The notes beneath the pieces were generated by a model. The model searched no databases. It saw nothing but the letters and a program-made list of their open reading frames with translations, and had not been told where the DNA came from. A stretch of 64,000 bases of DNA, from the NCBI GenBank assembly GCA_023653785.1, contig JAMKCH010057901.1:272090-336089 (forward strand). Reading direction: 5' to 3'. The stretch comes from Ophioderma brevispina (Eukaryota; Echinodermata; Ophiuroidea; Amphilepidida; Ophiodermatidae). Made by a program: the position numbers and the translations under genes. Below are positions 2,520-57,908 of the stretch, one piece after another. Within the stretch, counting starts at the first letter, position 1. The number at the start of each line of letters is the position of its first letter.

Positions 2520-2663
2520 TTATCTGCCATCTGTCATAGAGATGTCCACTAGTTCCCATTGTTGACCTGTTGAGCCATTACATTTGCTTAGTGTCGGCGA
2601 GTCTTTGCCTGGGGGCGCTTTGTCCATGCAATAGCCACTGGGACTGTGAATTATTGTCTTTTT
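2520..2663 (-). CDS. GALNT1/13-like: GALNT terminal coding exon: lectin repeat gamma and stop
   Basis: The exon starts after CTCTCTTTTCAG. It encodes [19 protein letters not shown], then [18 protein letters not shown], ends TDGR and stops at TAA (2520-2522). CMD, KCNGS and QQW are the gamma-repeat landmarks, and the tail length (10 residues after QQW) is close to that of GALNT1/13. The frame is open. The 3' UTR runs towards position 1 and its end is not defined. Confidence 0.94.
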   Translation of the reverse strand, partial: KKTIIHSPSGYCMDKAPPGKDSPTLSKCNGSTGQQWELVDISMTDGR

Positions 2664-5600
2664 CTGAAAAGAGAGAAAAGAAAGAGGTTGAAGTAACAGC
2701 ATTTAACATGTTACCCTTAAATCCTGATTGTTGTAACAGGTTATGTCAGTGGCTTTCAAGATGCCTCCCTGAAGGTCATTTGGAAAGCAATCTCAAAAAC
2801 TAATGACATACGACAAGCCTTATTTGGACTCATTTGAAAATGCCTAATTTTGAGGGTTTCATTATTTCTCTTCTCTAAATTTTTGATATTCACTAAATTA
2901 ACCTAGAACTTATATATTGGACAATTTAATTGCCATTTCTTAAATATTAACAAATTTGGACACCGGTCCCAAATAGGTCATCCAATTATTTGTTTTTAGA
3001 AATAAGTGTGAGGACTGTATAATGACACATGATTTTAATATACATTAATACAAATACATAATGTGGTACCTTTGTGGAAGTACTTTCAATAGAGAGGAAA
3101 AGCTAGGCAACATTTTAACCAAAAGTGTATACCACATGCACAAGATATATTGACCTTAAGTGACCCCTGAATGACCTTCGACCTCATCTGTTGCCCCACA
3201 TTACAACCCTTGTCTCAATGTATAAGCATACCAAGAATGAACTTGATCCATCACTGCACTAAAAAGCTAGGCACCTTCTAAAAGCTAGACAATAATTTAC
3301 CGTGTTGTTCCTAATAAATGCCCCTGCTCTAATAAATGCCCCTACGATTTTTGCATAAAACAATTCAAGAAAATGAGTTAAGCTTACCTAAATCACATGA
3401 TTTAATGGCCGGGACTGTCGTAATCCGTATTATATTCGCTGTTGTGCACAGTTGTAATAGTTTAATTAGTATGGAACTTTGACCTCGGGAGGTACGAAAA
3501 CAGCGTCCCCTGCTCGTTCGTTTGTATTATTGGTAATTAGCGAAAATAAGCGTGTGTAAGGCGATTTCTGACTTTCCATTTTTTACTGTAATAAACGCCC
3601 TCCGTTTTGAAAAATGCACCGCCCCCGGGGCGTTTATTAGGAACAATACGGTAACCAAGTATATATTTCCGTGTATGACCCCAGGTGACCCCTGAATGAC
3701 CTTCGACCTCATCTGTTGCCCCACATTACAACCCTTGTCTCAATGTATAAGCATACCAAGTATGAACTTGATCCATCTCTGCACTAAAAAGATAGACAAC
3801 AATTTACCCAAAGTGTATACCACATGCACAAGATATGACCCCAAGATGACCCCTTGAAGGACCTTTGGAATCGTCATCTTTTACCCTACATAAGAACCTT
3901 GTCTCAATGTATAAGCATACCAAGTATGAACTTGATCCATCTCTGCACTAAAAAGATAGACAACAATTTACCCAAAGTTGTATACCAACATGCACAAGAT
4001 ATGACCCCAAGTGACCCTTGAATGACTGACTTTCATCTTTGCCCTACCTAAGAAACCTTTCTCAATGTCTAAGCGATACCAAGGATGAACTTGATCCATC
4101 ACTGCACTAAAAAGCTAGACAAACATTTTATCCGAAAGTGTATACCAAAAGTTTGACACACACATTGACGAACTGACTGACAGACACACAAACACACTGC
4201 CATAATGTCTTTCCGCTTTCATCGGATGACCTAAAAATGTATGGCAAACTCTCTTATGTAAGGCATGCAGAGACAAACTTATTAATAAATCCTATTCAAA
4301 TAAATCTCACTATCTTTCGCCAAGCATAAGTCCTTGCATATTGACAGCCATTTTGGCACATCGCTGATTATAATATTCATATAGTAGGGATCATTACAGT
4401 TTTATACACATGCATGTGAATTAAATCCATGTAAATTGAGATCAATCAAAGTGGCAATTATCAGCAGCTACTGACTAACATGAGGGCTATGGCGCTTTAA
4501 GAGTCCAAGATATGATAAGTACAGTAGGCTGCACACATACCCACCTATTTGTTAGATTTTCATTTCCAATTAGGCAAAATAAGTTTGTCTCAGAAACTAT
4601 TTGACACAAGAGCTGTACTAAACTTTTTAGTCAAAAAAGAAAGCTAAAACGATTGGGATTTCCTTTTGCATTTTCGAGCTACTCCCCCCCATTTTTTTTT
4701 ATCTGACAACTGAAAAAAAACCAAGGTCTGAACGGGGCCAATCACAAAGCACTGCACAAATAATATGATTTTACAAAGGCTTGTGTGTGGCTTTCTGAGA
4801 CCAAAGATTCTTATTCTTGGCTTTACGGTTTTACAGTGAAATGTATATACCTCACAACATCAGTATAGCTGATTTATACTCTGTCAGAATCCTTCAGAGT
4901 TATTTACGTGCCCTGTGCATCAACACGGAAGTGAATGCCGATTGGCTTGTTTGAGTCAGGTCAGCTTCCATTGGTTAATCGTTCATGAGGACCACCCATA
5001 GGCTCTGCCCCTTTCATGCAGATATTTATGGCGCACACGTTGCCCACCTATGAACAATTCTGACGCAACTTAGGATTACAAAATAAGAAGGATTCGTAAT
5101 GAGCGGGACTGACCTGTTCATCAAATTTCCACTCCTGGTTACCATGTTTACCATGGCATTTATACATCATGACGTCAGCATAGTTAGAATTACTAGAAGC
5201 ATCTAGACATAGGTCATCATGTTTCAGCTCATTCTCCTTTGTCAAGGCAAATATCTGAAACAAATTAACAAGGAATATACAAATTAACTTAACAATTCTT
5301 TATCTGTTTTACAAGATATTGGCTATATTTGCATACACAGTGACATGCAATACACACTTCAATCAATTTCTTCATTAACCTGCTAGAAATATTGGTATTT
5401 GGTTGTTCTTTAGGATAAAATCACTTGGAGTTTACTCATCAAATGTTAAATCACACTCTTGCAATCAAAACAAGAGTGCATTCGAGGGTTTTAGGGCAAG
5501 AAGCCCCATCTGCAATAGCGCCATTTGTCAATTGTGTTCTTATTAAGTGTGATACCTACCAAATCTAACATGTGGAAGCTATTGCAGATTGGGGCCTTCT

Positions 5601-8600
5601 GCACAAACCCTCGATTTCACAAAATGTCTTGGTGGATTGTTTTGGTGAATCCCAACTCTCTTTGGATTGACTTTGGTCTAAAAATTGTTGGGTAAAATTT
5701 CAGGAATCAGAAGAGGATCTGTCAGACAGGAATCAGCTTCCACCCACTGATGATGGTGATTGGTATCACCAAAATATTCAGATTCCAAATGCAAGTGTTG
5801 TTGAAAAAGTTTTAAATTGTTCTTCAGATAAAATTTGGTTGACATTTCAAAGTGGTCACTCAATCTCGGATTACATTTAGTACTAAGTGATGCAAAGACC
5901 CAGGCTCGGTTTGTGGGGCGTGTATCCGCTAACCAATCAAAACTGACCGGCCCGGCCCAAGCTACACCCACCCACCAAGTTGCGTGATAGTACGACCCCG
6001 GGCCTCTGAGAAAAGGGGCAGACAAAACAGCAGCGTCGTGACAGATAGGGTGGCATCTATAATATAGATGGCTTTGAATTTCATACACAAAATGGACTTG
6101 GATGTGTGTAATGTAGACTGTATCTCCCATTCTTATTCAGTGGGCAGGGTTTTAGTAAGCAACCAATCACAATATTGGTGTGGACATCTTATAGAGACGA
6201 TATTAGATAGTGCGTCGGCGCGCAAGTGTTTACGTGCGTGTGTATAAGGTTACGCAGTACACGCAGCTAGTACGAGTTGGGTTTTTTTTGACAGTGGGGG
6301 AATATTTTTTGCCCGCTTGTTTTAACTAATTATTATGAAATAAAAAGATTTCGGTGATTAAAACAACCAAACTAAATAAGAATGATAATAAAAGATAGGA
6401 TTTGTTGTTTTGCCTATCGTGTCATATTGGATGGGCAGTCCAATATTTTTATCGTAGTCTGCGCCGGCATCCACTACTCAAAATATTGGACTGCCCATCC
6501 AATATGACACGATATTATAGGCAAAACAACAAATCCTATCTTTTATTCTCTAGTTCTCAACAACCACATCTTAGACCAGACATTAAGGACAACCTAAGGT
6601 GTTTGTATTCCATTCAACCAAGCAAACTTTTGTTTTTCTTGAGTCCAGTTAGTTGGGTTATGAAACCCAGTGGTGACCAAGTGGTCAAATCTAGGTCAAC
6701 AGCCTCAAGTCAGCCACACCTGCATGGTCGTCACATTTTATCATGACAGTGAAAAGTCGGTCAAAGTGGATGGCTACTCATAGCAGAATTCAACTAGATT
6801 CACACGCTGAATAATAATTCGATTGGCTTACACAGCTCAATGGAATATTTTCATCACAGTTTAATGTTGCCATTGAGTTTTGTGACTATACCAAAACAGG
6901 AAGTGTTCATCTTTAAAAATGTACTTTCAGGCACCTGTTATAGTGCATTTATCTCCTTCAGTCAGTGATGTCAGCGCGATTTTCAGTGGCCAAAGTATTA
7001 AATCGCGGTCGTTGATTGAAAGCGCTGGCATGCACACATGTGCGCGTTTAAAGCCGACACTTAGATGCGCGCAAGAAATACGTGCATGACCGTGTTGAAG
7101 TCACTTACTCGAGGAAGATAAATGCAATATAGTAAATTTATTAAATTTTGAACCTATGTAACTATACAGTCAATCAGCCAATTCGCTGTAGAAGTGCCAC
7201 GTAATAGGATTTGTTGTCCCGGCAATCGGTCCAAACAAATGACGGGGCTTATAATGCGGGGAATTCAAATCTTTCATTGTATGGCATGTGTCCTGCGCCC
7301 TGTGATTTGTTTGGACCGATTGCTGGGGAAACGAATCCTATTACGTGGCACTTCTACAGCGAATTACACTCACAGAGCTGTTTGACCTTGATTTACCTTT
7401 TATGCAGCTACTCAGTTATTTGACATTGGGTTGAAAACATGCTTTAAAAACTTGCTGTTTTACTGATTAGAATATCAAACCCTTCTAAAAACGGGGATGT
7501 TTTGATAGTTTGCAGATTGCTACATCTATTATTAGATTCATATTTCAAAACAATGGATTTTAATATGCAAACCAATTGACAAATTTAACTGCTTTCTACC
7601 TCAATAAAAACAGCCCAACCAGAATGTCACAAACATCAAATGAAAGCTTGATTCCTAAGCTAAGTAAAAATCTCTTTACATTGACAGAGCTTTCTTCAAA
7701 TACATACACTTTCACATAAACGGAATTTTATTTAGCCAAGGAATCAAAGCTTTCATTTGATGTGCATTACATTCTGATGGGTTTTTATTAGCCAAATCAC
7801 AAAATCTGTAGACTCCAGATATCCAAATTGTTTTCAAATAAAAAGACAAGATAGTAATATGGCTTCATTTCAGAGTGTCGGAATGCTTTTTCTTTCTTAG
7901 ACTGTCTTTAAGATGTTGGCATGACACTATACTCACTTGGTTGCCACCTTGGCCGTGGCAATTAAAGAATCCTACTTTTTCATTTTCTTCCGTCCCATGT
8001 TGTCTATGCATTTCCTGGTTTCCATATTTCTAACCTGTAAAGAACAAAGATAATACACACAATTTTACTTTACCTGGATAACTCAGCCACCCATTTTGGC
8101 ATGCATTATTATTTGGAAACAAAACCATATTCTAGAATTCATGATAATGGTATCAAAACTCTTTGTGATGATTCTAAAGAGGAACAGAGATTGAAACAAA
8201 TGACAAGCAAAGTTCGTTTTGCCATTAACATTCAGGCCTAATAGGCATCAATTCTGAGAATAAATTGTTTAGTTCAATTCCCTAGCATTGAATTGTTGCT
8301 GTTATGATAATTATACACAAATCTTGTTGTTTTTGTGCTGAATTGCCGAACAAAGTATAATGGCAATATATAAAGGCAGTTTTGAGTGTGCCAATTATGG
8401 CCCAAAGATAGCCATAGGTATGCTCAATGTCTTTAAAACTTGCAAACTGTTTGAACAGACCTAAAAATATTTTGTGCGGGTGCTGCCCTCTGTGGTTCAC
8501 CCAATATTCTTTTTTAATTGAAAGAAAAGTTTTTACTCTACCAAAGTATACCACCTGTGAAATTTTAGGATTTTTTTCTTTCTTTCCCATTTGTTTTGCT

Positions 8601-10922
8601 GCAAACTACTTCAAAACACTTTATATTCACATTTCAATTCAAACTGTGAAATATCTATAAGGGTTAATGTTGATTCTGAATACACATTATCCAAATACAA
8701 TAAATACATACCCCTCCTATAGATGACCTACATTTTAAAATTATGGTTCTGAATATACAATATCTAAATACAATTAATATATACCTCTCCTATGACTTGA
8801 TATCCAGTCTAAATTGTAATTCTGTATATACATTATCTAAATACAATTTATACATACCTCTCCTATAGACTTGACATCCAGTCTAAATTGTATTCTGTAT
8901 ATATATTATCTAGATACAATTTACACCTACCTCTCCTATAGACTTGACATCCAGTCTAAATTGTAATTCTGGATATATATTATCTAGATACAATTTACAC
9001 CTACCTCTCCTATAGACTTGACATCCAGTCTAAATTGTGATTCTGGATATATATTATCTAGATAACCAATCAAAACTCTTGCACTGTAGTTGACTTCTTA
9101 GAGCTTTACGAGCTGCTATATCACCATATTCTGTCTTTTTCACACCTGCAAAAGTAATCCACAAAAATTGTAAGAGAAGAAGCCCCAAATTTTACCAGCA
9201 GTGGTCAACATTTTGGTATCATAAGAAAGCTATTTTTCTCATTTACCTGGAAATCTTAGAGCCAAAGGAGTTTGGTTTGGAAGTTATGAGCGAAAATGTG
9301 CCCCCATTTTGGTCAACCAAAATTAATTTTACACAGTACTTTATGAGGCTTACAAAATCACGTTTTAGCTCTCGCATCAAAACGGATTGAAATATCGGCG
9401 CAAAACTTTACAGATGGGGTTTTGGAGTGAAGGCCTGTCTATCAGATGAAAACTTCATATCCTTAAATCTGGCCATCACCCTTTAATACCACAATTCAGG
9501 TGATGGCAGCCAAGAAATTTGAAATTAGATGTTACCATTGGTTTAAACATGTAAAAGCGAAAACTTGAAGAAAAATTCTGAAATTTTATATGTTGTCAAC
9601 GATATTTTCCTATTTCAAAACTTTTGGAAGAATCAACTCCGCTCTAAGGGTTATTTCTAATCTATATATGAATAACAGATATGGATGAGGTCATATATGG
9701 GCCAAAGGAACACCCACAATTGACTCGCATCAAAGCACCAAAATCTTTTTTTTAGTTTCCAGTCTACATTGCAGTAATCTAATTTATTACATTTGGTTGA
9801 GTTGCTATATTAAATGAGGCTTGGTCACCGTTGTCTGCCACTATTCAAATTTAAAATTCATGAACAAATTTTTTTTCTTCTGAATATTAAATCTACAATT
9901 AAAGAATCAAGCACTTATATTAACTAAAAGAGACATTGACAGAAATGGCATTCTGTGACATTTACTTGCAATATTAAAAGCTATGCATAGCCTTAAAAGC
10001 CACTTGAAATTTTCCAAGGAGATTTAGTGCAAGATGAAATTTGCAAATTTTTCAATATCAACATTGTAGTATGTCTCATTTGTCGCCGATAATATAATTA
10101 TTAGCCTTCAGAGGACTGTAAGGCAAACCTGATAAAATATAGACATATTGTATGCACACTTTATAAAGGCTATTTGACATAATCTGAGTTTCAATGTCTC
10201 TTTAAATCAAGAGGATTACACAATTTTTAAAATTATTCAAAAATAAGTTTTTTATCTTATCATTCTTATATGAAATGAGGGAGGGGGACAGAGTGAAATT
10301 TGGGGGAGGGGGAAAGTGATTTTTTTTTTTGGAAAAACATCTAAAATATTGATATTCTTAACCAATTTTTGGCCCCAAATCACTGATTTTTGCTAAAATT
10401 CTGTCAGTCATTTTTTTCGGGAGGGGGGGGGGCACTTTGGGGGAGGAGAAAGTGGGGGGAGGAATTGGAGGAAGGCAAGAAATAAAATTAGGAGGAAATT
10501 TTTTCTCCTGTGCCCCCCCCCCCGGCACTGCCACCTGGTCATTAAATATTCAATATTCTGCTCAAAAGCCTTTGCAATAAAATGGGAAAAATTAACACCA
10601 AATTCCAAAGTCACTAATTTCAGACCCACGTGCCCAGCAAAATGCCTGCCAGTAAAAATCATCACGTCACAGAAGATGTGCATCAGTAATAACTTGAGCA
10701 TTCTGAAGGCAACAATAATGACTGTGTCTCATGGAACTCACCCGGTGATATTTTATAATAGAAATTTTTGTACTGGTCCATCCACACCTCTGCTAGTCTC
10801 TGGTTGTTGCGGTTGATGATTTTACCCGTTCCACCAGGGAACGTATACGGTGTTGACTTACGGAATACATGACCTACGTGGGAACAAGTAATGATCTCTA
10901 AAGTACCGCCACACATCCATAT
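2520..10922 (-). CDS. GALNT1/13-like: Polypeptide N-acetylgalactosaminyltransferase, GALNT1/13-like (3' part of gene, five exons)
   Basis: This is the C-terminal 234 residues of a Golgi type II membrane enzyme that moves GalNAc from UDP-GalNAc to Ser/Thr, the first step of mucin-type O-glycosylation. Exons in transcript order are 10742-10922, 9005-9145, 7937-8034, 5114-5254 and 2520-2663, all with AG/GT borders and consistent phases (0, 1, 0, 0, 0). The order is the end of the Gal/GalNAc-T motif ([14 protein letters not shown]), the linker ([13 protein letters not shown]), then three lectin repeats marked by CID, CLD and CMD. Similarity along the whole length is closest to GALNT1 and GALNT13 as I know them. 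The signal anchor, stem and first catalytic half should lie upstream, above 10922, and I did not find them. Single-base indels near 9064 and 7987 break the frame. They may be sequence errors or inactivating changes. Confidence 0.93.
3112..4155. repeat. About 160-bp tandem repeat, four copies, in the last GALNT intron
   Basis: The marker ATCCATCNCTGCACTAAAAA recurs at about 3246, 3771, 3935 and 4094. The last three are 164 and 159 bp apart. The first gap is longer because a 352-bp MITE lies inside it. Each unit also carries a TGACCCC...TGAATGACC block, TGTATACCA and CATGCACAAGATAT. Confidence 0.88.
3298..3653. mobile_element. TA-flanked MITE (Tc1/mariner-like) inside the 160-bp tandem repeat
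   Basis: The element spans 3300-3651 between two TA dinucleotides (3298-3299 and 3652-3653). Its ends are inverted: CCGTGTTGTTCCTAATAAA at the left, and the complement of CCGTATTGTTCCTAATAAA at the right, followed by GCCCC. Neighbouring tandem copies without the insert show the empty site CAATTTACCCAAAG. A TA duplication is typical of Tc1/mariner MITEs. No transposase is present. Confidence 0.85.
4156..5113. other. Intron sequence, no feature recognised
   Basis: The rest of the last GALNT intron is AT-rich unique sequence with no repeat or exon that I could support. Confidence 0.5.
5114..5254 (-). CDS. GALNT1/13-like: GALNT exon: lectin repeat beta
   Basis: The exon is 141 nt (47 codons) and open throughout. 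It is bounded by TTTGTTTCAG and donor GTCAGT. It reads [20 protein letters not shown] and, after a short variable loop, [16 protein letters not shown]. It carries the CLD motif, the KCHG cysteine and an intact Gln-x-Trp (QEW), the core of a sugar-binding beta-trefoil repeat. In GALNTs this domain steers the enzyme to substrates that already carry GalNAc. Phase 0 at both ends fits its neighbours. Confidence 0.95.
5482..5614. mobile_element. Short foldback element in a GALNT intron
   Basis: The 133-bp element has arms of about 38 bp. The left arm (5482-5520) begins TCGAGGGTTTTAGGGCAAGA. The right arm (5575-5614) is its near complement, ending CCTTCTGCACAAACCCTCGA. It can form a hairpin in the GALNT pre-mRNA. 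The superfamily is unknown. Confidence 0.8.
5900..6075 (+). repeat. Dispersed repeat, copy 1 (second copy at 43905-44085)
   Basis: A diverged block with GCTAACCAATC, GGCCCAAGCTAC, a CCCAC-rich stretch and a GAGAAAA...ACAGA segment recurs in the same order and orientation at 43.9 kb. The type is unknown. A 150-codon minus-strand open frame (5678-6130) crosses it and is most likely chance. Confidence 0.6.
6135..6552. mobile_element. Dispersed element with ~160-bp palindrome, copy 1
   Basis: A ~240-bp head (ATTCAGTGGGCAGGG, ACGATATTAGAT, GTGTATAAGGTTACGCAGTA, CACGCAGCTAGTACG) leads into a near-perfect palindrome. The arms are about 6381-6451 and 6478-6552. Their outer ends read ATAAAAGATAGGATTTGTTG and the loop side reads ATGGGCAGTCCAATATT. 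A second copy lies at 22837-23229. It is in the third GALNT intron. Confidence 0.88.
7180..7365. mobile_element. Foldback element in a GALNT intron
   Basis: Inverted arms of about 64 bp (7180-7243 and 7301-7365) start AATTCGCTGTAGAAGTGCCA and continue CGTAATAGGATT. Next come GGCAATCGGTCCAAACAAA and a central loop of about 57 bp. The arms are almost identical, so the insertion may be recent. Confidence 0.88.
7602..7790. mobile_element. Foldback element in a GALNT intron
   Basis: Arms at about 7603-7659 and 7737-7789 share AATAAAAAC, CAGAATGT, then ACATCAAATGAAAGC and TTGATTCC in inverted order, with a roughly 75-bp loop. It lies 147 bp from the exon at 7937-8034. Confidence 0.8.
7937..8034 (-). 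CDS. GALNT1/13-like: GALNT exon: lectin repeat alpha (one base missing)
   Basis: The exon starts after TTACAG and ends before donor GTGAGT. It encodes [16 protein letters not shown], then [17 protein letters not shown] in a second frame. The family sequence around GRKENEKVG needs one more G, in a G/A run near 7987. The exon is therefore 98 nt instead of 99 (33 codons). As written, translation stops soon after GRK. The CID and NCHG landmarks of the alpha repeat of the beta-trefoil are present. The usual Trp of QxW is replaced by the NQ/IF junction, as in GALNT1. Confidence 0.9.
8035..8671. other. Intron sequence, no feature recognised
   Basis: AT-rich intron between the alpha-repeat exon and the donor-copy array. 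Open frames on both strands here are short and overlap each other. None resembles a protein. Confidence 0.5.
8672..9063 (-). repeat. 73-74 bp tandem array built from an exon 3' end and its splice donor
   Basis: Five donor-bearing units occur at spacings of 74, 73, 73 and 73 bp (CTCTCC core at 9005, 8931, 8858, 8785 and about 8712 on the plus strand). The unit nearest the coding exon is the exon itself. Each unit repeats the coding text of [20 protein letters not shown], then GGAGAG and a GT donor, then about 15 nt of intron. Units diverge step by step with distance from the exon. All five keep a GT donor (GTAGGTG twice, GTATGTA, GTATAT, GTATGT). Reading past the first donor meets a TAG within nine codons. 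Confidence 0.93.
9005..9145 (-). CDS. GALNT1/13-like: GALNT exon: linker between catalytic and lectin domains (frameshifted, donor copied in tandem)
   Basis: The acceptor is TTTTGCAG and the exon ends GGAGAG before donor GTAGGTG. With one base removed it encodes [19 protein letters not shown], then [15 protein letters not shown], then [12 protein letters not shown], which matches the family linker (DYGD, LQCKPFSWYLENIYPD, SLGE). As written there is one extra T at 9064-9065, between the Trp and Tyr codons. This causes a stop four codons after the Trp. The length is 141 nt where 140 is expected. The last ~58 nt and the donor are repeated downstream in a 73-74 bp array (8672-9063). A MITE remnant sits about 30 bp upstream of the acceptor. 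Confidence 0.9.
9175..9486 (-). mobile_element. TTAAAGG element family B, copy 1 (truncated)
   Basis: Similar, in inverted orientation, to 57555-57908. Shared blocks include AGTGGTCAACATTTTGGTAT, CTTAGAGCCAAAGGA, AGCGAAAATGTGCCCC and ATATCGGCGCAAAA. The outer end CACCCTTTAA (TTAA at 9483-9486) is kept. The other terminus is lost, and the remnant stops about 30 bp from the acceptor of the GALNT linker exon. Confidence 0.82.
9487..10741. other. Intron sequence with G-rich element at 10260-10545
   Basis: Mostly unique AT-rich intron. From 10260 to 10545 there is a G-rich block with runs of 5-11 G, AATCACTGATTTTTGC and a C-rich end CCGGCACTGCCACCTGG. It resembles the hAT-like G-rich elements elsewhere in the window and could form G-quadruplexes. 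Confidence 0.5.
10742..10922 (-). CDS. GALNT1/13-like: GALNT exon: end of catalytic domain with metal-binding His
   Basis: The 181-nt exon (60 codons plus one base) starts after a pyrimidine-rich tract ending in CAG and stops before donor GTGAGT. It reads [10 protein letters not shown], then [19 protein letters not shown] and ends KISPG. In the family, the His of VGHVFR is one of three ligands of the catalytic manganese, and the WMCGG block is part of the Gal/GalNAc-T motif. Both are intact. The frame is open and the sequence is nearly colinear with vertebrate GALNT1. The exon ends in phase 1, matching the next exon. Confidence 0.95.
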
Positions 10923-11731
10923 CTGGCAAAAAGAAAAACAGGACGATGCTGTGAACCATTGCATTTTATACTACACAAATATGATATGTGGTCTCACAGG
11001 AGCATTTTACCAGTCCCAACTTGCATTGCTTTGTAATTATAATGCCATAGACACACATAGGTACTTGAGCATAGTTAAGTGTGTAAGTAGGTTAAAGATG
11101 AATGCAAATTTCAAAGATCCTTTTCAAAAATTACTGAATGCTATCTTTACATAGAGAAAATAATGTTTAAGCGCTTGTGTGCTGGTAAATGGCTACCATG
11201 CTTTGTCGTATGGTGGAATTATGATGGAATTTCTTAATCGTAAAAATTATGAGCCGATTTGACAGTTATGACCAAAAATGCAACTTAATATCTGTACCCG
11301 TGATAAGCAAGCATTACCCAAAATATGAAACCAAACACACACAATTTTGTATTTCTATACACTTTGGGACTGCAACAAACTGTGTCCTCGGTCAGGAAGC
11401 CAAACACAGAATAATGCCTACTGCTTTACTTCGATCCAAAGAACCTCCCCAGGGACCATTGTTCAAAATAAAGTTCTTGGTGTTAGGTCCTCTAAAGTAC
11501 GCACACACATATACACACACACACACCACCACAACAAACACACTTAATGAACTACACCCCCCCCCCTCCGTCCCCTCCCCCCTCATGTCGGCCCTATGGG
11601 TCTCTCAATAAAACTTCAGATTACCGTACTTACAAAAAGAGTTGTATAGTTTGGTTTAATAAAAAATTGATCTTTGCAATGAATTAGAATGGGGTGAAAA
11701 TATACATGAAATTTTATATATTGATTAATCT
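10923..11731. other. Intron or upstream sequence, CA microsatellite
   Basis: No exon was recognised. A CA-rich microsatellite lies at about 11502-11540, followed by a C-rich run near 11560-11582. The next upstream GALNT exon (expected to end in a WGGENLE-like motif) was not found here. Confidence 0.5.
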
Positions 11732-12324
11732 GTACCTGGAGATTGCCAGCGCAGATAGTGTTGAAAAAAAAAACCCATGTGCGCTGGCGGATTCGAACCG
11801 GCGACCTTCGTATACATGCACGACGCTCTAACAACTGAGCTAATCAAGCAGGGTTGGTAGAAGCGCGATAGATATCATCTATAGGTGTGGTTCGAAAGGT
11901 GTCCTTCGCGTTTCTAGCGGATAGCATCAGAACTGATATTTTACATATACGATTATATTAGAATCCGCCAAGCGCACATGGGGTTTCTTTTTCAACACTA
12001 TCGTGCGCTGGCAATTTCCAGGGAAAGATTAATAATATTATACATCCTTGTCTACTGGGAACTAAGTAGTTTAAATTTCAAAACAAATATAATAGATATA
12101 TGTAAATATACAGTTCTGATGATATCCGCTAGAAAGCGAAGGACACCTTTCGAACCTACACCTATAGATGATATCTATCGCTCTTATACCAACCCTGCTG
12201 GATAGCTAGTGGGTAGAGCGTCGGCATGTAATACCGAAGGTCGCCGGTGCGAAGCCGGCCAAGCGCACATGGGGTTTTTTTTTTTTTTTTTCAAAACACT
12301 ATCGCGCGCTGGCAATCTCCAGGA
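11732..12324. mobile_element. Large palindromic element with tRNA-like arms, copy 1
   Basis: The outer ends CCTGGAGATTGCCAGCGC and its complement face inward. Each arm contains a tRNA-like block. The minus-strand one (about 11788-11851) has TAGCTCAGTTGTTAGAGC (A box) and GGTTCGAATCC (B box). The plus-strand one (about 12199-12262) has TAGCTAGTGGGTAGAGC and a mutated B box. The arms continue inward with a shared ~85-bp stretch (GATAGATATCATCTATAGGT, GGTGTCCTTCGC). A third terminus-like piece (AGCGCACATGGGG...GCGCTGGCAA) sits in the middle. The look is that of two SINE-like units joined head to head. A related copy is at 30381-30570. Confidence 0.8.
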
Positions 12325-14869: not shown

Positions 14870-17335
14870 AAAAGTGGAAAAAACTCTCATATGAACTGGG
14901 TCAGTGGAAAAGACAAGGTGAAATCTCATGGTTGAAGTGGGTAATGGTAAGTCAAGGTGGGAATCTTATAGGATTCTGATTGGGTCAATGTTAAGTCAAG
15001 GCAGTAGATATCCCATGAACTGAGCTAAGGTGTGGAATTCACAGTAGATATCTCATGAACTGAGGTCAAGTCAAGGTGGAACTCTCACAGTAAGTAGAAT
15101 CTCATGAACTGAGCATAAGCCAAGGTGAAAAATGAAAGTCTCCAGTAGATTATCTCATGACTGAGTTCCAGCCAAAAGCGAACTGCCTGTAGATACCTCC
15201 TGACCTGCGTCAAGTCAGGGAAAGGCTCCCAGTAAGTAGATATCTCATAAACTGAGTCAAGTCAACGTGAACTACCAGTAGTTGATATCCATGAACGAGT
15301 CACGCTAAGGTGATTGAAACTCTCACAGTAGATACCTCATGAACGGAGTCAAGTCAAGGAGGAACTCTCACAGTAATATCTCATGAACTGAGTCAAGCAA
15401 GGTGGAACTCTCACAGTAGATATCTCATGGAACTGAGTCAGGTCAAGGAGGAACTCTCACAGTAGATTCTCATGAACTGAGTCAAGTCCACGGTGGCACT
15501 CTCACCGTAGATATTCATGAACTGAGTCAGCCAAGTGGAAATTCTTCCAGTAGAATCATCATGAACTGAGTCCGCGTCGAGGGAAACTCTCACAGTAGAG
15601 AATCTCATCGAAATGAGTCAGTCAGGTGAAACTCTCACAGTAGATATTCTCATGAACTGAGTCAAGTCAGGTGGTGGAATTCACAGTACGGAATCTCATG
15701 ACTGAGTCACAGCCAAGTGGAACTCTCACAGTAGTGGATATCTCATGAACTGAGTCAAGCAAGGTGGAAAACTCTACCAGTAGAGTCTATTGAATGAGTC
15801 GAGTCGAGGTGATGGAAACTCTCACAGGAGATATCTCATGACGAGTCAAGTCAAGGTGGTGAAAACTCATAAGTTAGATATCGCATGAAACTGAGTTCAA
15901 CCAAGGTGAAACTCTCACATAGATATCTCATGAACTGAGTCAAGTCAAGGTGGAACTCTCACAGTAGATATCTTAAACTGAGTCAAGTCAAGGTGGAACT
16001 TCACAGGTAGATATTCATGAACTGAGTCAAGTTCAGGTTGGAAATCGAATAGTAAATAACTCATGACTGAGAAGCCAAGTGTGGAACTCTTCCTAGTAGA
16101 CCTCATGAACTGAGTCAAGGCAAGGTTGAAACTCTACAGTAGATATCTCATGAACTGAGGAGTCAGGTGGAACTCCTAACAGTTAAATACCTATGAACCG
16201 AGTATAGCCAAGGTGGAAATCTCCCAGTAGAGATTCATGAACTGAGTAAGTTCAAGGTGGATGGAACGCGCAAGTAGATATCTCATAAACTGAGTCAAGT
16301 CAAGGTGGAACTCTTCACAGTAGATATCTCATGAACTGAGTCAATTCAGGGTGGAAACTCTAAGTAGTAAATAACCCATGACCCTGAGTCAAGCCCAATG
16401 GGGGAACCTCTCCTAGTAGATAACCTCATGAACTGAGTCAAGCCAAGGTGTGAAACTTGTCACAGTAGATATCTCATGAAACTTGAGTCAGTCAGGTGAA
16501 CTCTACAGTAGATATCTCATGCACTGAGTCTCAAGTCAAGGTGGAACTATCACAGTAGATTATCTCCTGAATGAGTCACGTCAAGGTGAATGAAACTCTC
16601 AACAGGAAGATATCTCATGAACTGAGTCAAATCAAGGTGTGAAACTTCACCGGAGCTATCTCATGAACTGAGTCAAGTCAAATCGTGTTGGAAAACTCTC
16701 ACAGTAGTATATCATAAACCTGAGTCAAGTCAAGGGGGAACTCGCACATTGATATACTCATGAACTGAGTCGTCGAGTCAGGTGGTGGAACTCTCACGTA
16801 AATACCTCAGGAACCGAAGTCAACAGGGGAATCTCCCAGTAGATTACTCAAATGAGTCAAGTCAAGGTGGAACTCTCACATTAGATATATCATGAATGAG
16901 TCAAGCAAGGTGGAACACTCCAATAGATATCTCATGAACTGATCAGCCAAGGTGAAACTTCTCAAAAGTCGTAGATATCTCCTGAAACGAGTCAAGTCAG
17001 GGGGGAACTCTCAAGTAGATAGATACTCCGAACCGGAGTCAAGTCAAGGTGGAACTCTCACAGCTGTAATGCATTGACTGAAGTCAAGCAAAGTGGAACT
17101 CTCACAGTAGATATCTCAGAACTGAGTCAAGCTTAGGTGAAACTCTCCAAGGTAGAGCTCATGAACTGAGTCAAGCAAGGTTGGATGAACACTCACAGTA
17201 GAATTCATGAACCGAGTCAAGCCAAGGTCGAACTTCACAGGAGATACTCAATATCTGAGTCAAGGCCAAGGTAGAACTCTCACAGTAGATTCTCAAGATC
17301 TGAGACACGCCAAAGGTAGAAAACTTCTCAACAGT

Positions 17336-17770
17336 ATTTTTTCAATTCAAATTAGTTTTTATTAGCATATCCTTCAGCCAATACATACATAATGATAAAA
17401 TTATGACTGTTATTATTGAATAATATTGACAATTAAGAGGGGAAAGGAAAAATTAATATACAGAATGTTGAACTGGCATGATATCAAATGCGGGAGAGGC
17501 CATAATAAGTCTGATGGGACTTTGAGAATGACCCCACCTAAAATATACATGATTATGATTAATAATTTAACTACGGGACAAGACACATGAGAAACAAGAC
17601 AGGACAGGACGATCCAGGTACGATGACAATTACAATTATTGTTTTAACAAGATAGGGGCAAAAGAACAAGGTGAACGTGGCGAACCAGTAAAGGACACGA
17701 TTAAAAGAGAAGGATAAAAAGGTATTGACAATATTGAGTGGTCAACTATAGAAATGGGGGAAAAAATACA
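17336..17770. mobile_element. Unique insert within the 45-bp array
   Basis: About 435 bp unlike the array interrupts it cleanly. It begins with a T run and TCAATTCAAATTAG and ends GGGGGAAAAAATACAGTAA. Array sequence resumes with CTCATGAACTGAGTCAAG. A 5-6 base ACAGTA is found on both sides and may be a target duplication. The oligo-T start and A-rich end suggest a retroposed or LINE-like fragment on the minus strand, but no coding motif is visible. Confidence 0.55.
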
Positions 17771-18329
17771 GTAAATATACCTCATGAACTGAGTCAAGGC
17801 AAGGTGGATGGAAACTCTCCCAGTAGAACTCATGAACCGGGAGTCAAGTCAAGGGGAACTCTCACAGTAGATATATCATGAAGAGTCAAGCCAAGGTGTG
17901 AAACACTCCCATAGATATCTCATGAACTGAGTCAAGCAAGGTGAGAAAATCCCACAGTAGATAATCTCATGAATGAGTTCAAAGTCAAGGTGGAACTCAC
18001 AGTAGATATCTCATGAACTGATTCAAGTTCAATGGTGGAACTCTCACAGTAGATACCTCAAGAACTGAGTCACGTCAAGGAGGCACTCTCACGTAGATAT
18101 TCTCATGAACTGAGTCAAAGCACGTGAGAACTCTCACAGTTAGATAATCTCATGAAATGAGTCAGCAAGGTGACAACTTTCACAGGAGATACTCATGAAC
18201 TGAGTCATAGCCAAGGTGGAAATCTCACAGTAGATATTCAGGACCTGAGTCAAGTCAAAGGTGAACTTTAACGGTAGATACCTCATGAACTGAGTCAAGC
18301 CAATGGTGGGAACTCTCAAGTAAATTCAC

Positions 18330-18456
18330 AAAGTTGTCAATAGCAATCAATAGCAAGGTCCAGAAGATAAATAAAATTCTAGAGCAGGGGTTTCCAGTAA
18401 CAACCTCATCAACATATTAAACTTCCTTCGTTAAGGTTTCATGGGTTGGTGACAAT
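18330..18456 (+). repeat. Spacer block 1 in the minisatellite
   Basis: Non-unit sequence with AATAGCAAGGT, ATAAAATTCTAG, AGCAGGGGTTTCCAGT, CATCAACAT and a TTTCATGG...TTGGTG end. Related blocks occur at about 19246-19376 and 20256-20370. They are therefore part of a higher-order repeat of about 0.9-1.0 kb. Confidence 0.8.
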
Positions 18457-19245
18457 ATCATGAACTGAGTCAAGCAAAGTGGAAAGCACTCCCATTAAGA
18501 ATATCATGAACTGAGTCGAGTCAAGGTGGAACTCTCCACAGTAGATATCTCATGAACTGAGTCAAGCCAAGGTGTGATGAACTCTCACAGTAGATATTCA
18601 TGAAACGAGTCAAGTCAAGGTGAAACTCTCACAGTAGATATCTATGAACTGAGTCAAGCCAAGGGGAACTCTCACGTAGATATCTCATGAACGAGTCAGT
18701 CACGTCAGGGGGGATACCTCACAGTAGATAGATATTCATGAACTGAGTCAAGTCAAGGTGGAACTCCACAGTAGGATATCTCATGAACTGAGTCAAGCCA
18801 AGGTGGAACTCTCACAGTAGAAGATACCTCAAGACTGAGTCAAGCCAAGGTGTGAAACTCTCACAGTAAGTATCTCTGAAAGTTCAAGTCAGGGTGTGGA
18901 ATCTTACAGTAGAATCTCATGAACTGAGTCAAGTCAAAGAGAAACCTCACCAGTAGATATCTCATAAACTGAGTCAAGTCAAGGTGAAAAACTCTCCCAG
19001 TAGATATTCATGAACTGAGTCAGTCAAGGGGAACTCTCACAGTTAGATATATCTTGATAACGAGGTAGTCAGTCAAGTGGAACTCTCAAAGTAGAATCTC
19101 ATGAAAAATGAGTAGAGTCAAGGTGGAACTCTCACAGTAGATACCTCAAGAACTGAGTCGGTCCAGTGCAACTCTCACAGTAGAGCTACCTCATGAACTG
19201 AGGTCAAGCAAAGGTGGAGATTGCTCACAGAGATATCTCACCAAA

Positions 19246-19376
19246 GTTGGCAATAGCAAGGTTCCAGACGATATATAAAATTCTAGGAGCAGGGGTTTCC
19301 AGTCACAAACTCATCAACATTTAAAGACTTTCCTCTGGATAGTTTTCATGGTGTTGGTTGTACAATATCATTGAAT
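19246..19376 (+). repeat. Spacer block 2 in the minisatellite
   Basis: Second copy of the spacer, with the same AGCAGGGGTTTCCAGTCACA core and GGTGTTGGTTGTACAATATC tail, then a return to array units. Confidence 0.8.
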
Positions 19377-20255
19377 GCAGTCAAGCGCAAAGTGGAAACT
19401 CCCATTAGATAATATCATGAACTGAGTCGAGTCAAGGTGGTGGAACTCTCACAAGTAGATATCTCATGAATGAGTCAGCCAAGGTGAAACTTTAACAGTA
19501 GCATATCTCCTGAACTGCGTCAAAAGTCAATCGGGGAAACTCTCACAGTAGATAACTCAAGATTGAGTACAAGCCAAGGTGAAAACTTCACAGTAGATAT
19601 CTCTGACTGAGTCAAGACAAGGTGACACTCTACAGAGAGACACTCAAGATCTAGTCAAGGCCAAGGTGAAACTCTCACAGTAGATATCTATGAACTGAGT
19701 CAAGTACAACAGTTAGAACTCTACAGTAGCTTATCTCATGAACTGAGTCAAGTCAGGGAGGAACGCTCACAAAGATCTATTTTTTCATGAACTGAGTCAA
19801 GTCAGGTGGAACTCTCACAGTAGATAGGCTATCTATGATAATGAGTCAAGTCCAAGTGGAACTCTCACAGTAGATCTATCATGAACTGAGTACAAGCCAG
19901 GTAAACTCTCACAGTAGATATATCATGAACTGCGTCCAAGCCAAGGTGAAACTCTCACAGTAGATATCTCATGAACTGAAGTCAAGTCAAGGTGAAACTC
20001 TCACAGTAGATATATCATGAACTGAGGTCAAGTCAAGGGGGAACTCTTCACACGTAGATCTAGATATTCATGATAATGAGTCGAGTCAAGGGGGGTGGAA
20101 CTCCACAGTTAGAATCTCATGAACTGCGCGAGTCAAGGGGCAATACCACATGTAGATATCTCATGAACGAGTCAAGTCAAGTGGGAAACTTTACAGTTAG
20201 ATCATATGAACTGAAGGCAAGTCAAGGTGGAACTCACAGTAGATATCTCACAAAG

Positions 20256-26550: not shown

Positions 26551-27284
26551 CACATTGAGGGCCTGAATTTTGCAGTTATCAGGAGTTTTAGATTTTTTTA
26601 TGTAATTCAAACTATCTAGCTTTAAGTGAAAGAAACTGTATTCACTCTGGCCCTAAATCATTTAAAAAAAATCTAGAATCACCTTGACTGAAAAACTTTT
26701 ATTCATTCTTTGAGCACTCAATTGTATGGCCCCCACCCTGTACATGGTGATAGCCCTAGCTAAACATAACCCTGTATTAATTATCTCACCCTAAATGATA
26801 GTTCTAAGTTCTCCTCCAACACATCCATGCCAGATCATAGGTTCCTATATCTTTCAGAGTAAGCCCTTATCAAATAGCCAAACAGTCCTCCCCCTTGGCC
26901 ATTGTTGGGTGTCTGAAAGCAAATCAAAATAGCAAGCATTGTAAGGCTCAATCAGCAAGATATAATTTGATTCTTCATTGAGAGTACACAAGCCAAGGGA
27001 AAAACACAATTGTGAAGACAAGGCAAAGTCTGGCAGGTAAAAAATAATTATCTACAATTTTACTGATGTGCAAAAACAAATTTCCCATTTACATTTTACC
27101 AAGGTTGAGTTTCTTTGCTATTTGCCGATTTTTAATTGTCAAATTTAAACTAGAAATCATTGCTATTGCATTGCAAATGTCCTCAAAGCATAATTCTGTC
27201 AATTAGTGTGGACCAAATAAAGGGGGACCCCCAAAGATAGATATACAAGGAGAAATCGTATTATTAAGTCAATGCGTAAAAATA
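26551..27284. other. No gene recognised
   Basis: Unique AT-rich sequence up to the left terminus of the TGTCCCC element. Confidence 0.5.
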
Positions 27285-28456
27285 TGTCCCCGCCAAAGTC
27301 GAGATCAAAACATGCGATTAAAGGCAATACAACACCCGACCCCCCCGCCGCAACAACCGTTAGCCACCCCCCCAACACCCCGCAAAACACCCAAACACCC
27401 ACCCCAAACACCCCGCAACACCACCCATCCTCAAACAACCCCATCCCCTCGCCACATCACATCAACACCAACCCCACCCCCTCTTAAACTACCTCAACAC
27501 CCCCCCTCCTTAACACCCCTCACAACCCCACCCCCACCACAATACCCCACATGCCTCCCTTCCCAACACTCCGCAACATGCCACCGATCCCCTCCCTCAC
27601 CCCCCCCCGCAACACGTACCTACCCCCTCCCCAACACCTCACCCTCCCCAACACTCCCATACCCTCACCAACACTATCACCCCTCCCAACGCACCCGCAA
27701 ACACCCCTCCCTAACAACATGCAAACCCCTACCCCCTCTCAACACACTGCAACCCAACACCCTTGCCAAACCTCTGCACACCCACCCCCTCCCGAAACAC
27801 CCCACAATACTAACCCCCTCCCTCAACACCCCACCCCCTCCCTATGACATAGTAGTATCATGTATGCGAAGGAATTTTGCCTATCGATGTACCGTTCAGA
27901 GGATACAGCAATTACGCATATTAATTAGCTCATTTGCATCTTTAAGCCGCATATATCACAACTTTCAAAATTGCAAAAAATAAGATTTGGCCCCATGATA
28001 GGCTTTCATGCCGGCAAGAATTTTGAAATCCAATGACACAGTGTCACTAAATTATAGCAATTACGCGATTTTTGCATATTAATTTTAGACATTTGCATAT
28101 CCAATTTGCCCAAAATAAGTCCAAAAATATCGGTATGAAGCAACTCTCAGCTCCGCTGCTTCCACCAAGGTTACATCATTATACGCTTATGGAACTCCAG
28201 AGAAACTTGTACAATACCTTGCCGAAAATTTTCATAAACTAGTGCAAATTAGATTCTTAATTCAAAATCTAATAGGTCGAGAAACTCATCAACCTGCTTC
28301 TTTCAACCAAGTTACATCATGTTGCCCTTACGGAAACTCCAGATAAATCGTTTACAACGTGGGTTAACATTTTATCACAGACGGACGGGCAATATACGAA
28401 ACGCACGGATGGCTGACTATTTATAGTCCGTTCCGAACTCGTTCGGCCGGGGGACA
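27285..28456 (+). mobile_element. TGTCCCC-family element, copy 2 (complete)
   Basis: Starts TGTCCCCGCCAAAGTCG and ends GTTCGGCCGGGGGACA, its inverted form. The flanking 4 bp are AATA on both sides (27281-27284, 28457-28460). Inside is a ~490-bp C-rich array (about 27340-27840) made of CCCCAACAC-like units, then the AT-rich body with an internal direct repeat, then the GGACGG block. Open frames of up to 223 codons are products of stop-poor CCN/ACN repeats. No transposase. Confidence 0.85.
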
Positions 28457-29770: not shown

Positions 29771-30380
29771 ACCCTTTGGGCCAGGGGGATAAAAATTGAT
29801 TTGTAGGCTAGTTAGTTATGCGTTGGTCTCATCGTGAAAATTTCTGATAAATAACATGATTCATCCCCAGCAAATAAGTAATTCCAGCTTTACATAATGG
29901 TAGTGTCTGTCTCATTTCTTCTGTCGTTTCTCGCTGTGGGACCAGGATACCATCTGAAAAGTAAGTTTCCAATTGAAGCCACCATAAGTCATATCCGACC
30001 CCGTGTGGAATGCAAAATTATCATCGCTAATTACATCATGAGGGGAACCACCATACGGATCTGTAGAAGAAGAAAGAGAAAGAGAAAAAATTTGTTTGGA
30101 AATTGTATGTCAGCAGGGACTTTAATTACAAAAGTGCAATTCTCTCTAACAATCTGGGGATTCTTTGGGTTGGATGGGGTGCACAGCTGTGAGGTCAAAA
30201 AATGATTTAGAAATTATACAGGAAAATATAAAAAGATGAGGAACAAAACAAGATTACTACTGGTCTAGATTTTTTAGCCCCCCTCCCTCCCCCCCCGCAC
30301 CCTACCCTCCCTCCCCCCCCCCCGCCCGCCAACCATTTCTGTTAAAATTAATACAAAATTTGTATATAATTAATCTTGTC
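29771..30380. other. No gene recognised; C-rich tract
   Basis: A 102-codon plus-strand frame at 29897-30205 starts with a hydrophobic stretch ([12 protein letters not shown]) but resembles nothing known and lacks supporting context. A C-rich tract lies at about 30279-30331. Confidence 0.35.
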
Positions 30381-37204: not shown

Positions 37205-39096
37205 TGTCCCCGCCGAATGTCGCTATCACATACATGCGATAAATGCATGACACACCCCACCCCCCCTCCCCAACACTGTGCAATACTCCACCCCATCCCC
37301 AACACCCTAAAAAAAAAAAACCCCACTACCTTTCCCCAACACCCTGCCAACACTCACCGCCCCCACACCCCGCAACACCCTCCACCCCCCCCCCCAACAC
37401 GTCCCTCTCCACCCTCCCCACCCCACCCTCGCCCAAGACCCACAACTCCGCTAACAGCCACCCCCAGAACACCGCCTTTCCCACACTCTGCAACTCACCC
37501 ACCCCACCCCTCCTTAACACCAGTTCGCCCTCACCCGAGGAAGAAGTAACACCCCCCTCAACCCCCCACCCTCACCCTTACCCCGTCACAACACCTCCCA
37601 CTTCCCTAGCACTTACTTTGGCCTCGTCACTGTATATTCTCACTATCACAAGGTTGCTCTACCACCTTTGAGGGGCATAAGGCAAGGCCAAAGTGGCAAT
37701 ATAAATGAGTTCTGGTTATCGTCTGAAATAAAGGGAGCAAATCATTGTTTTCAAAATGCGTCAAAATCACTCAAAAGTAACATGATGTCTGCGGCCCTGC
37801 TTCCACACATACACATTGCAAAGCATTTTGATGTTTATATGCTCTAGAAGGACCAATTTACATATATTTAGACACAACATTACCATTTTGTACATTCTTG
37901 ATTTTTGTGTTTGTATAACACTTGTACATTTGTTTCTCCTTCTAAAATCCATCATTTGCCAAACTCCATAAAGCACAGTGATCGCGCAACCATGACACCT
38001 TTGGTTTCGAGAACCTCCTTGTTGTGGTGGGGCCAGTTGATTGCCATAGGTTTGTATAGCAATGGCGCGCAGTCGATCGCTGAAGGAATCGCTTTTCTTT
38101 TCAGCAGCCTTGGCTTCGGCTCGGCCTTGCCTGCCTAGGGCCACATAGTGAGGCTACCCTCCCCAATTACCCTGCAAACACGTCCCCCCACCCCCACTCC
38201 CCTCACAACACCGCAACACCCCATCCCCTCCCCAACCGACCCTCCACCCCTCCCAACCTCCCACCCCCTCCCAGCACCCCGCAATCACCCCCAGCCCAAA
38301 ACCATGCAACACCCCAACCACCATCCGCACCAACAACACTGCAAACACAACACCCCCTCGCCAAACCCTGCCACACCCCACCCTCCCCAACACCCTGCAC
38401 ACCCCACACCCTCCCCAACACCCCGCAATACCTACCCCCCTCCCCAACACCACCCCATCCCTATGCATAGTTAGTTCATGTAGGAAGGAATTTGGTTATC
38501 AACTTACCGTTTCAGAGATACAGCAATACTATATTAATTGCTCAGTTGTATACACTAAGCCGCATATATACATACTTTACAAATTGCAAAAACGATTTCG
38601 GCCCATGAATAGGCTTTCATGCAGCGCAGGGAATTTTGAGTATCCAATGTACAGTGTCAAAAAATTATAGCAATTACACTGGTTTTTGCATATTAATAGC
38701 TCATTTGCATACTCAATTTGCCCAAAATCTAATCAGTCAAGAACTGTTTCCGCCGCCTTACTTCCACCAATGTACATCATTATACACCTTACAGACTCCA
38801 GAAAACTTGTACACAGACGTGCCAGGATAATTTCATTAAATTATGCAAATTATTAGATACTTAATTAGCATATTTGTAAGCCCAGAATCGAATCAGGTCG
38901 AGAACTCATCAACCGCTTCTTTCCACCAAGTTACATTCATTGTTGCCCGTAAGGAACTCCAGGATAATCATATACCAAACATGGGTTAACACTTTTTACA
39001 GACGTTCGCGGGACGACACGGCGGACGATACGATACGGAAGGATGAACGGACGCTGCTCATTTTATAGTCCCCGTTCCGATCGTTCGGCGGGGACA
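37205..39096 (+). mobile_element. TGTCCCC-family element, copy 3 (with ~600-bp internal extra segment)
   Basis: Starts TGTCCCCGCCGAATGTCG and ends CGATCGTTCGGCGGGGACA, its inverted form, with AAAA on both flanks. Two C-rich arrays (37255-37600 and 38155-38460) sandwich a non-repetitive ~550-bp segment (about 37610-38150) that is absent from copy 2. The AT-rich body and GGACGG block follow as in the other copies. A 125-codon minus-strand frame in the extra segment (37767-38144, reading DRLRAIAIQTYGNQLAPPQQ) is unidentified. Confidence 0.83.
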
Positions 39097-57554: not shown

Positions 57555-57908
57555 TTAAAGGGGGATGGCCCGATTTAAGTATATGAAGTTTTTATCTTGG
57601 TAGAATGGACTTCGCCTCAAAAGTCCATCTGTAAATTTTCGCGCCGATACTTCAATCTGTTTTGATGGGATACCTCAAACATGATTTTGTAAACCCCATA
57701 GAGTGCTGTGTAAAATTAATATTGGTCCACCAAAATGGGGCACATTTTCGCTCAAAACTTCCAAACCAAACATCCTTTGGCTCTAAGATTTCACAGGTTA
57801 AATGAGAAAAACAGTAGCTTTCTTCTGATACCAAAATGTTGACCACTTCCTGTAAAATTTAGGGTCCCTGGGGACGAGGCTATTAGCAATCGGGCCATGG
57901 ACCTTTAA
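57555..57908 (+). mobile_element. TTAAAGG element family B, copy 2 (complete)
   Basis: Starts TTAAAGGGGGATGGCCCGAT and ends ATCGGGCCATGGACCTTTAA in inverted form. TTAA is at 57555-57558 and 57905-57908. The body matches the truncated copy at 9175-9486. Confidence 0.87.

Follow-up and report, generated by a model that had tools for sequence, protein, structure and literature searches.

Tandem repeats lying across exon/intron borders have been described in the globin genes of amphioxus under the name of 'mirages', one of them duplicating the 3' border of an exon (PMC3087553). Adh3, cited in the same paper, has units of 10-72 bp and shows somatic instability, and mirages in PGBD5 (60 and 108 bp) and TnC were added to the series (PMC3902484). 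The Adh3 data, together with reverse-transcription polymerase chain reaction on the globins, suggest that regular splicing is undisturbed, although the duplicated sites could act as cryptic ones, and the globin paper proposes a route of intron gain for mirages (PMC3087553). In the human gene IFI6, two downstream repeat units serve as splice donors and three mRNAs result (PMC4526556), and intron gain has been attributed to tandem duplication of AGGT (PMC3443670). Here we describe a tandem array across the 3' border of an exon in an apparent GALNT gene of the brittle star Ophioderma brevispina, lying within a stretch of 64,000 nt (the window; assembly GCA_023653785.1, contig JAMKCH010057901.1, positions 272,090 to 336,089 of the forward strand).

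We consider it likely that the array is a mirage-type minisatellite seeded at the exon/intron border of a living brittle-star GALNT1/13-type gene, which is spliced at the first donor, and that its copies drift neutrally. The array would have begun when the final 60 nt of the exon were duplicated along with the adjoining 14 nt of intron, and would then have expanded and turned over further; similarity is greatest among the copies close to the exon and lowest at the distal edge. Since splicing most likely still takes place at the exon's own donor, after 9005, the extra copies would be removed with the intron and be free to drift.

Structure of the array

The array occupies the minus strand from 9064 to about 8671 and comprises five full units of 73-74 bp, placed by alignment, followed by a fragment of a sixth (Table 1). 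Tandem Repeats Finder (TRF) located it at 8673-9064 with a period of 73, 5.3 copies and a score of 530 (556 at a period of 147), against a top score of 62 among 500 dinucleotide shuffles of 8600-9170. The five full units measure 74, 74, 73, 73 and 73 bp, and the differences of one base may be assembly error. Each joins 59-60 nt of exonic to 14 nt of intronic sequence, and a GT donor is present in all five. The units run head to tail, each spanning the exon/intron border, and the real exon forms the outermost one: unit 1 consists of the final 60 nt of the exon and the first 14 nt of its intron and is continuous with the exon (9145-9005), while units 2-6 lie downstream, in the intron. A search of the whole assembly (2.51 Gb in 65,844 contigs, the window being the final 64 kb of contig C55035), in which the best candidates were scored, gave one match.

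A preliminary description of this locus had reported a five-copy tandem array of the exon end and its donor, which TRF and alignment bear out with the addition of the partial sixth unit. The unit of 73-74 bp given there holds; the coding part, put at about 58 nt, is 60 nt in unit 1, and the intronic part is 14 nt. Further donors had been placed near 8931, 8858, 8785 and 8712, beyond the one at 9005, and these are exactly the exonic edges of units 2-5. The ATTG/TATC microhomology at the exon, proposed there as the seed of the array, is a 4-nt match within AT-rich DNA.

The host gene

The host gene appears to be a GALNT1/13-type polypeptide GalNAc-transferase, to judge from its predicted exons. 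Seven GALNT exons follow one another in order on the minus strand from 30.05 to 2.5 kb, the last ending in a stop codon; catalytic-region and ricin-type lectin sequence, exon order and consensus splice sites all point to this assignment. The exon bearing the array encodes the end of the catalytic region and the linker, and its frame-mended peptide of 44 residues matched chain 1xhb_A (E 1.7e-11). Its acceptor, TTTTGCAG, ends at 9146, directly before the exon, and the following exon starts with GTTAGAAAT (E/VRN; here and below a slash within a sequence marks the junction). A typed, frame-mended translation of 235 residues matched the lectin model PF00652 (E 9.9e-31), the domain starting no more than three residues from the junction between the array exon and the next. 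The same translation gave no match to any catalytic-domain Pfam model, and the catalytic part rests on a frameshift-aware alignment to the protein of the brittle star Amphiura filiformis. A GT donor was not found at the position tested for the exon at 29.9 kb. None of ten other open reading frames (ORFs) of the window matched Pfam.

A query as long as an ordinary GALNT had as its closest protein, among the 120 best of 1698 matches, that of A. filiformis (Ophiuroidea, order Amphilepidida), 93% identical over query residues 330-568; over a translation of 328 residues the identity was 91%. The other identities among the matches listed were 72-80% for sea urchins, 77% for a sea star, 71% for a sea cucumber, 59-72% for hemichordates and 58% for a lancelet. 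By these values the sequence is most likely that of a brittle star, and at 91-93% probably of one other than A. filiformis; an amphioxus host, which the mirage literature had brought into consideration, was rejected on the same search. No residues are inserted at the array junction (SIGE/VRNMET) in the A. filiformis database protein or, in the same alignment of eight rows (one being the translation of the window itself), in two sea urchin proteins and those of a sea star, a sea cucumber, a hemichordate and a lancelet.

Table 1. Exons of the GALNT gene, repeat units and the shared stop codon, in window coordinates.
Feature	Position	Strand	Remarks
GALNT exon, upstream	29895..30054	-	5 frameshifts
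GALNT exon, upstream	26787..26912	-	7 frameshifts; contig C57058 in frame over the same residues
GALNT exon, upstream	10742..10924	-	clean frame; donor CCGG/GTGAGT
GALNT exon bearing the array (end of catalytic region/linker, unit 1 at its 3' end)	9005..9145	-	GAG/GTAGGT, phase 0; A. filiformis P0121 residues 444-490
Repeat unit 1 (native copy)	8991..9064	-	60 nt exon + 14 nt intron; donor after 9005
Repeat unit 2	8917..8990	-	donor after 8931, 9-mer identical to unit 1; 1 mismatch in 74 against unit 1
TAG met by every extended isoform in the GALNT frame	8984..8986	-	
Repeat unit 3	8844..8916	-	donor after 8858 (GAG/GTATGT); 3 mismatches, 1 gap against unit 1
Repeat unit 4	8771..8843	-	weak donor after 8785 (GAG/GTATAT); 9 mismatches, 1 gap against unit 1
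Repeat unit 5	8698..8770	-	donor after 8712 (GGG/GTATGT); 15 mismatches, 3 gaps against unit 1
Fragment of a sixth unit (about 27 nt) at the array's distal edge	8671..8697	-	from alignment, edge placed by eye; TRF reaches 8673
GALNT exon, downstream, start of lectin domain	7937..8034	-	one frameshift
GALNT exon, downstream, lectin	5114..5253	-	clean
Last GALNT coding exon	2520..2664	-	clean; ends MTDGR, then stop

Occurrence among GALNT-family matches

Self-comparison and TRF were applied to 50 of the 52 GALNT-family matches in the assembly (L002-L031 and L035-L054; 46 of them outside the window), the two omitted ones lying in the window and one of these being the array's own exon. In none of the 50 did a direct repeat or a TRF array with a period of at least 10 overlap the match. 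This sample includes other exons of the same gene (L002, L005, L007 and L029) and two matches on contig C57058 (L008 and L026); some stretches overlap, and with matches down to E 7e-4 some are perhaps not exons. The same test on the seven exons of the window, with edges placed by eye, was positive for one, the exon at 9005-9145 (recovered as L001). Within this GALNT-family sample the array is a local event.

Divergence of the copies

Mismatches and gaps against unit 1, counted pairwise, rise with distance from the exon, as the preliminary description had stated (1/0, 3/1, 9/1 and 15/3 for units 2-5; for unit 3 the multiple alignment counts 4 differences where the pairwise alignment gives 3 mismatches and 1 gap). 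The translation of unit 1 equals the A. filiformis protein at 20 of 20 residues, and unit 2, which is in frame, retains 19 of the 20 residues of unit 1. Counting substitutions only and ignoring gaps, the exonic changes alter the residue in 1 of 1, 2 of 2, 4 of 5 and 10 of 11 cases in units 2-5, respectively, and two stop codons arise through substitution in unit 5. Units 3 and 4 lose the literal reading frame through single-base gaps, possibly assembly errors, and these losses were given no weight. Such drift would be as expected if constraint acts on unit 1 alone. The residue-changing drift also speaks against the copies having a coding or structural function, a possibility that was considered.

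Furthermore, the intronic 14 nt carry 0, 2, 4 and 4 changed sites in units 2-5; for units 3-5 this is a larger share of the sites than has changed in the exonic sequence. The donor 9-mers differ from that of unit 1 at 0, 1, 2 and 2 of 9 positions, against 1/65, 3/64, 7/64 and 13/63 outside them, and are no better conserved than the remaining positions (Fisher p 1.0, 0.42, 0.31 and 1.0; the test, on four copies, is of low power). Likewise, 53 of the 74 columns are invariant across the units, which gives an invariant GT a chance of about 0.51.

Splice donors and the predicted consequences of their use

The donors of units 1-5 scored 10.06, 10.06, 8.94, 4.32 and 7.65 on a position table. For comparison, among the 3805 GT sites on the minus strand of the window, 19 reach 10.06, 59 reach 8.94, 442 reach 4.32 and 99 reach 7.65. 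By these values the distal donors other than that of unit 4 look credible. Splicing through them would add 74, 147, 220 or 293 nt, the lengths given in the preliminary description, with remainders of 2, 0, 1 and 2 on division by three. Its corollary that only 147 keeps the frame is right as arithmetic and unreliable in practice, because single-base differences in unit length are unfit for deciding reading frames amid the frameshift errors of the same region. The early TAG that it had predicted for all longer forms does stand: a transcript running past 9005 in the GALNT frame would add V-G-V-N-C-I and then reach the TAG at 8986-8984, 18 nt into the intron. This codon stops every extended form, and the frame of each added length is therefore irrelevant. 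Three further coding exons lie downstream of it. If the exon-junction rule for nonsense-mediated decay (NMD) applies in brittle stars, decay of the extended transcripts is expected; a transcript escaping it would, from the position of the domain, encode an enzyme without the lectin domain.

The array might then work as a ladder of donors, the distal ones being partly used, with the TAG leading to NMD or to a short, lectin-less GALNT and copy number tuning the output. We regard this as unlikely. Donors 2, 3 and 5 do score from near-native to moderately lower, all extended forms stop with three coding exons still ahead, the lectin domain, starting at the exon junction, is missing from the truncated conceptual product, and IFI6 offers a precedent for repeat-unit donors (PMC4526556); set against this, donor 4 is weak, the donors bear no selective signature in a test of little power, and the amphioxus papers report no aberrant splicing (PMC3087553, PMC3902484). 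Quite unlikely, in our view, is the more specific form in which the intron-proximal donors divert transcripts to the TAG and lower GALNT output by decay or as lectin-less enzyme, the length of the array setting the ratio. The preliminary description had offered both a decoy-donor ladder acting through NMD and a selectively neutral minisatellite. The former is compatible with the donor scores and the IFI6 precedent and draws no support from conservation of the donors; the latter fits better, given the residue-changing drift, the unconserved donors and the normal splicing of amphioxus arrays (PMC3087553, PMC3902484).

Several points nevertheless weigh against neutral copies spliced out at 9005. 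The scores of donors 2, 3 and 5 (10.06, 8.94 and 7.65, where the native donor has 10.06) make some use of these sites plausible. Units 1 and 2 are near-identical over the exon end and donor, and local sequence alone would be no guide to the choice between them. The test for selection on donors, which gave no signal, had only four copies and little power. Moreover, the A. filiformis GALNT model that served as the comparison protein is labelled LOW QUALITY PROTEIN, and the 0 of 50 positive among the other GALNT-family matches gives no sign that such arrays are common here.

The unit borders bear on a further alternative. All five read G/GT and four of the five AG/GT, an arrangement that might permit stepwise removal by recursive splicing or the appearance of a new exon between copies, the array being an intermediate of intron gain. 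Introns are described as arising by tandem duplication of AGGT (PMC3443670), and such a route was proposed for mirages (PMC3087553), but on the coding strand no polypyrimidine tract was seen by eye before the unit borders, the copies carry residue changes and unit 5 also stops. We hold this alternative to be highly improbable.

Frameshifts and assembly quality

The frameshift-aware alignment to the A. filiformis protein placed 14 frameshifts in the seven exons (5, 7, 0, 1, 1, 0 and 0 from 30 kb to 2.5 kb), with no in-frame stop in any of the seven alignments; identical codons among those matched range from 23 of 28 in the lowest exon to 61 of 62 in the highest. One frameshift, which the preliminary description had overlooked, lies inside the array exon, where an additional base bordering unit 1, near 9068, causes the literal assembly frame to stop at the TAA at 9056-9054.

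Another contig, C57058, runs parallel to the window over 12.7-35.7 kb (12737-35650; L032, L033) at 72-86% identity, gaps about equalling or exceeding mismatches in several stretches. It starts opposite window position 12737 and stops short of the array, and is probably the other haplotype, a duplicate being the alternative. Across residues 341-384, the stretch with seven frameshifts in the window, C57058 keeps the frame, and it loses the frame itself over part of the exon that follows. Since it is clean at the place of those seven, the frameshifts are most simply read as indel errors left over from long reads and growing more severe as the contig nears its end. For comparison, nanopore R9.4.1 reads underlie the assembly of A. 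filiformis, which has 3.22% heterozygosity (PMC11310086).

The frameshifts, one of them at the edge of the array, could also be taken with the array itself as marks of a broken or misassembled locus, that is, of an assembly artefact or a decaying pseudogene, the more so as copy number in tandem arrays is often misassembled. This we judge very unlikely. The copies differ by substitutions (up to 16 of 72), which argues against one stretch repeated by the assembler. The residues flanking each frameshift match A. filiformis, three of the seven exons are free of frameshifts, and the lack of in-frame stops argues in the same direction. The alternation of frame between C57058 and the window points to read errors and not to decay of the gene.

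Other features of the window and its contig

A minisatellite of 5.2 kb lies in a GALNT intron at 15002-20250 (45-bp unit, about 115 copies, 67% matches); C57058 has related repeats colinear with it, the aligned pieces overlapping heavily. A stretch of 45 bp upstream of the array exon acceptor (9183-9227) has a second copy in inverted orientation at 57820-57864 (89%). At 113-237 kb of contig C55035, on the opposite strand, lie GALNT-like matches (L004, L009, L013, L018, L019 and L027), suggesting linked GALNT paralogues. On contig C19134, positions 8788-8898 (L031) match the N-terminal 37 residues of a GALNT protein at 81% with one internal stop; as contig C55035 breaks off where the window does, this is possibly the first exon of the array gene, assembled elsewhere.

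C-rich minisatellites that resemble one another in composition occur separately at 65-311, 27365-27726, 37334-37400 and 38217-38451. The ORFs at 3-533 and 38152-38667, which adjoin two of them, share SAGNFEYP, as if derived from a dispersed element. A marginal tRNA match at 11778-11849 (29.8 bits, cut-off 29) is perhaps a tRNA-derived short interspersed nuclear element.

Comparison with known systems

Among the literature matches listed (titles and abstract openings, with subscription papers mostly outside), none described a border-spanning array from an echinoderm, or from any other phylum besides the lancelet ones. The minisatellite of human IFI6 (6-16), which has several splice donors, was reportedly described by Turri et al. 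in 1995. It shares with the brittle-star array a donor in each of the repeat units that sit at an exon end. They differ in outcome: in IFI6 the downstream donors are used and yield three mRNAs, whereas the longer brittle-star forms, from candidate donors, would all stop early. Intron gain through AGGT likewise involves a duplicated segment carrying AG/GT; the brittle-star duplication, however, sits at an existing exon end and not inside an exon.

The closest likeness is to the amphioxus mirages (BflGb6, BflGb9, Adh3, TnC and PGBD5), which also span borders and have units of comparable size (10-72 bp in Adh3, 60 and 108 bp in PGBD5, 150-160 bp in the globins). In BflGb9 it is again the 3' border of the exon that is duplicated, and the edges of amphioxus clusters escape homogenisation, just as the distal edge is the most diverged part of the brittle-star array. 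The phylum and the gene are different, and copy-number variation and normal splicing are reported for the amphioxus arrays. The nearest protein here comes from a brittle star (93%), with a lancelet at 58% among the matches listed; because the host is thus not a cephalochordate, 'mirage' is used for the anatomy and not for common descent.

Units 1 and 2, which differ at 1 of 74 positions, provide a natural test of position against local sequence in the competition between donors, and the locus likewise lends itself to studying the possible seeding of new introns by such arrays. With it, border-spanning minisatellites, described in the papers cited from lancelets and one human gene, extend to an echinoderm and need not be a cephalochordate peculiarity.

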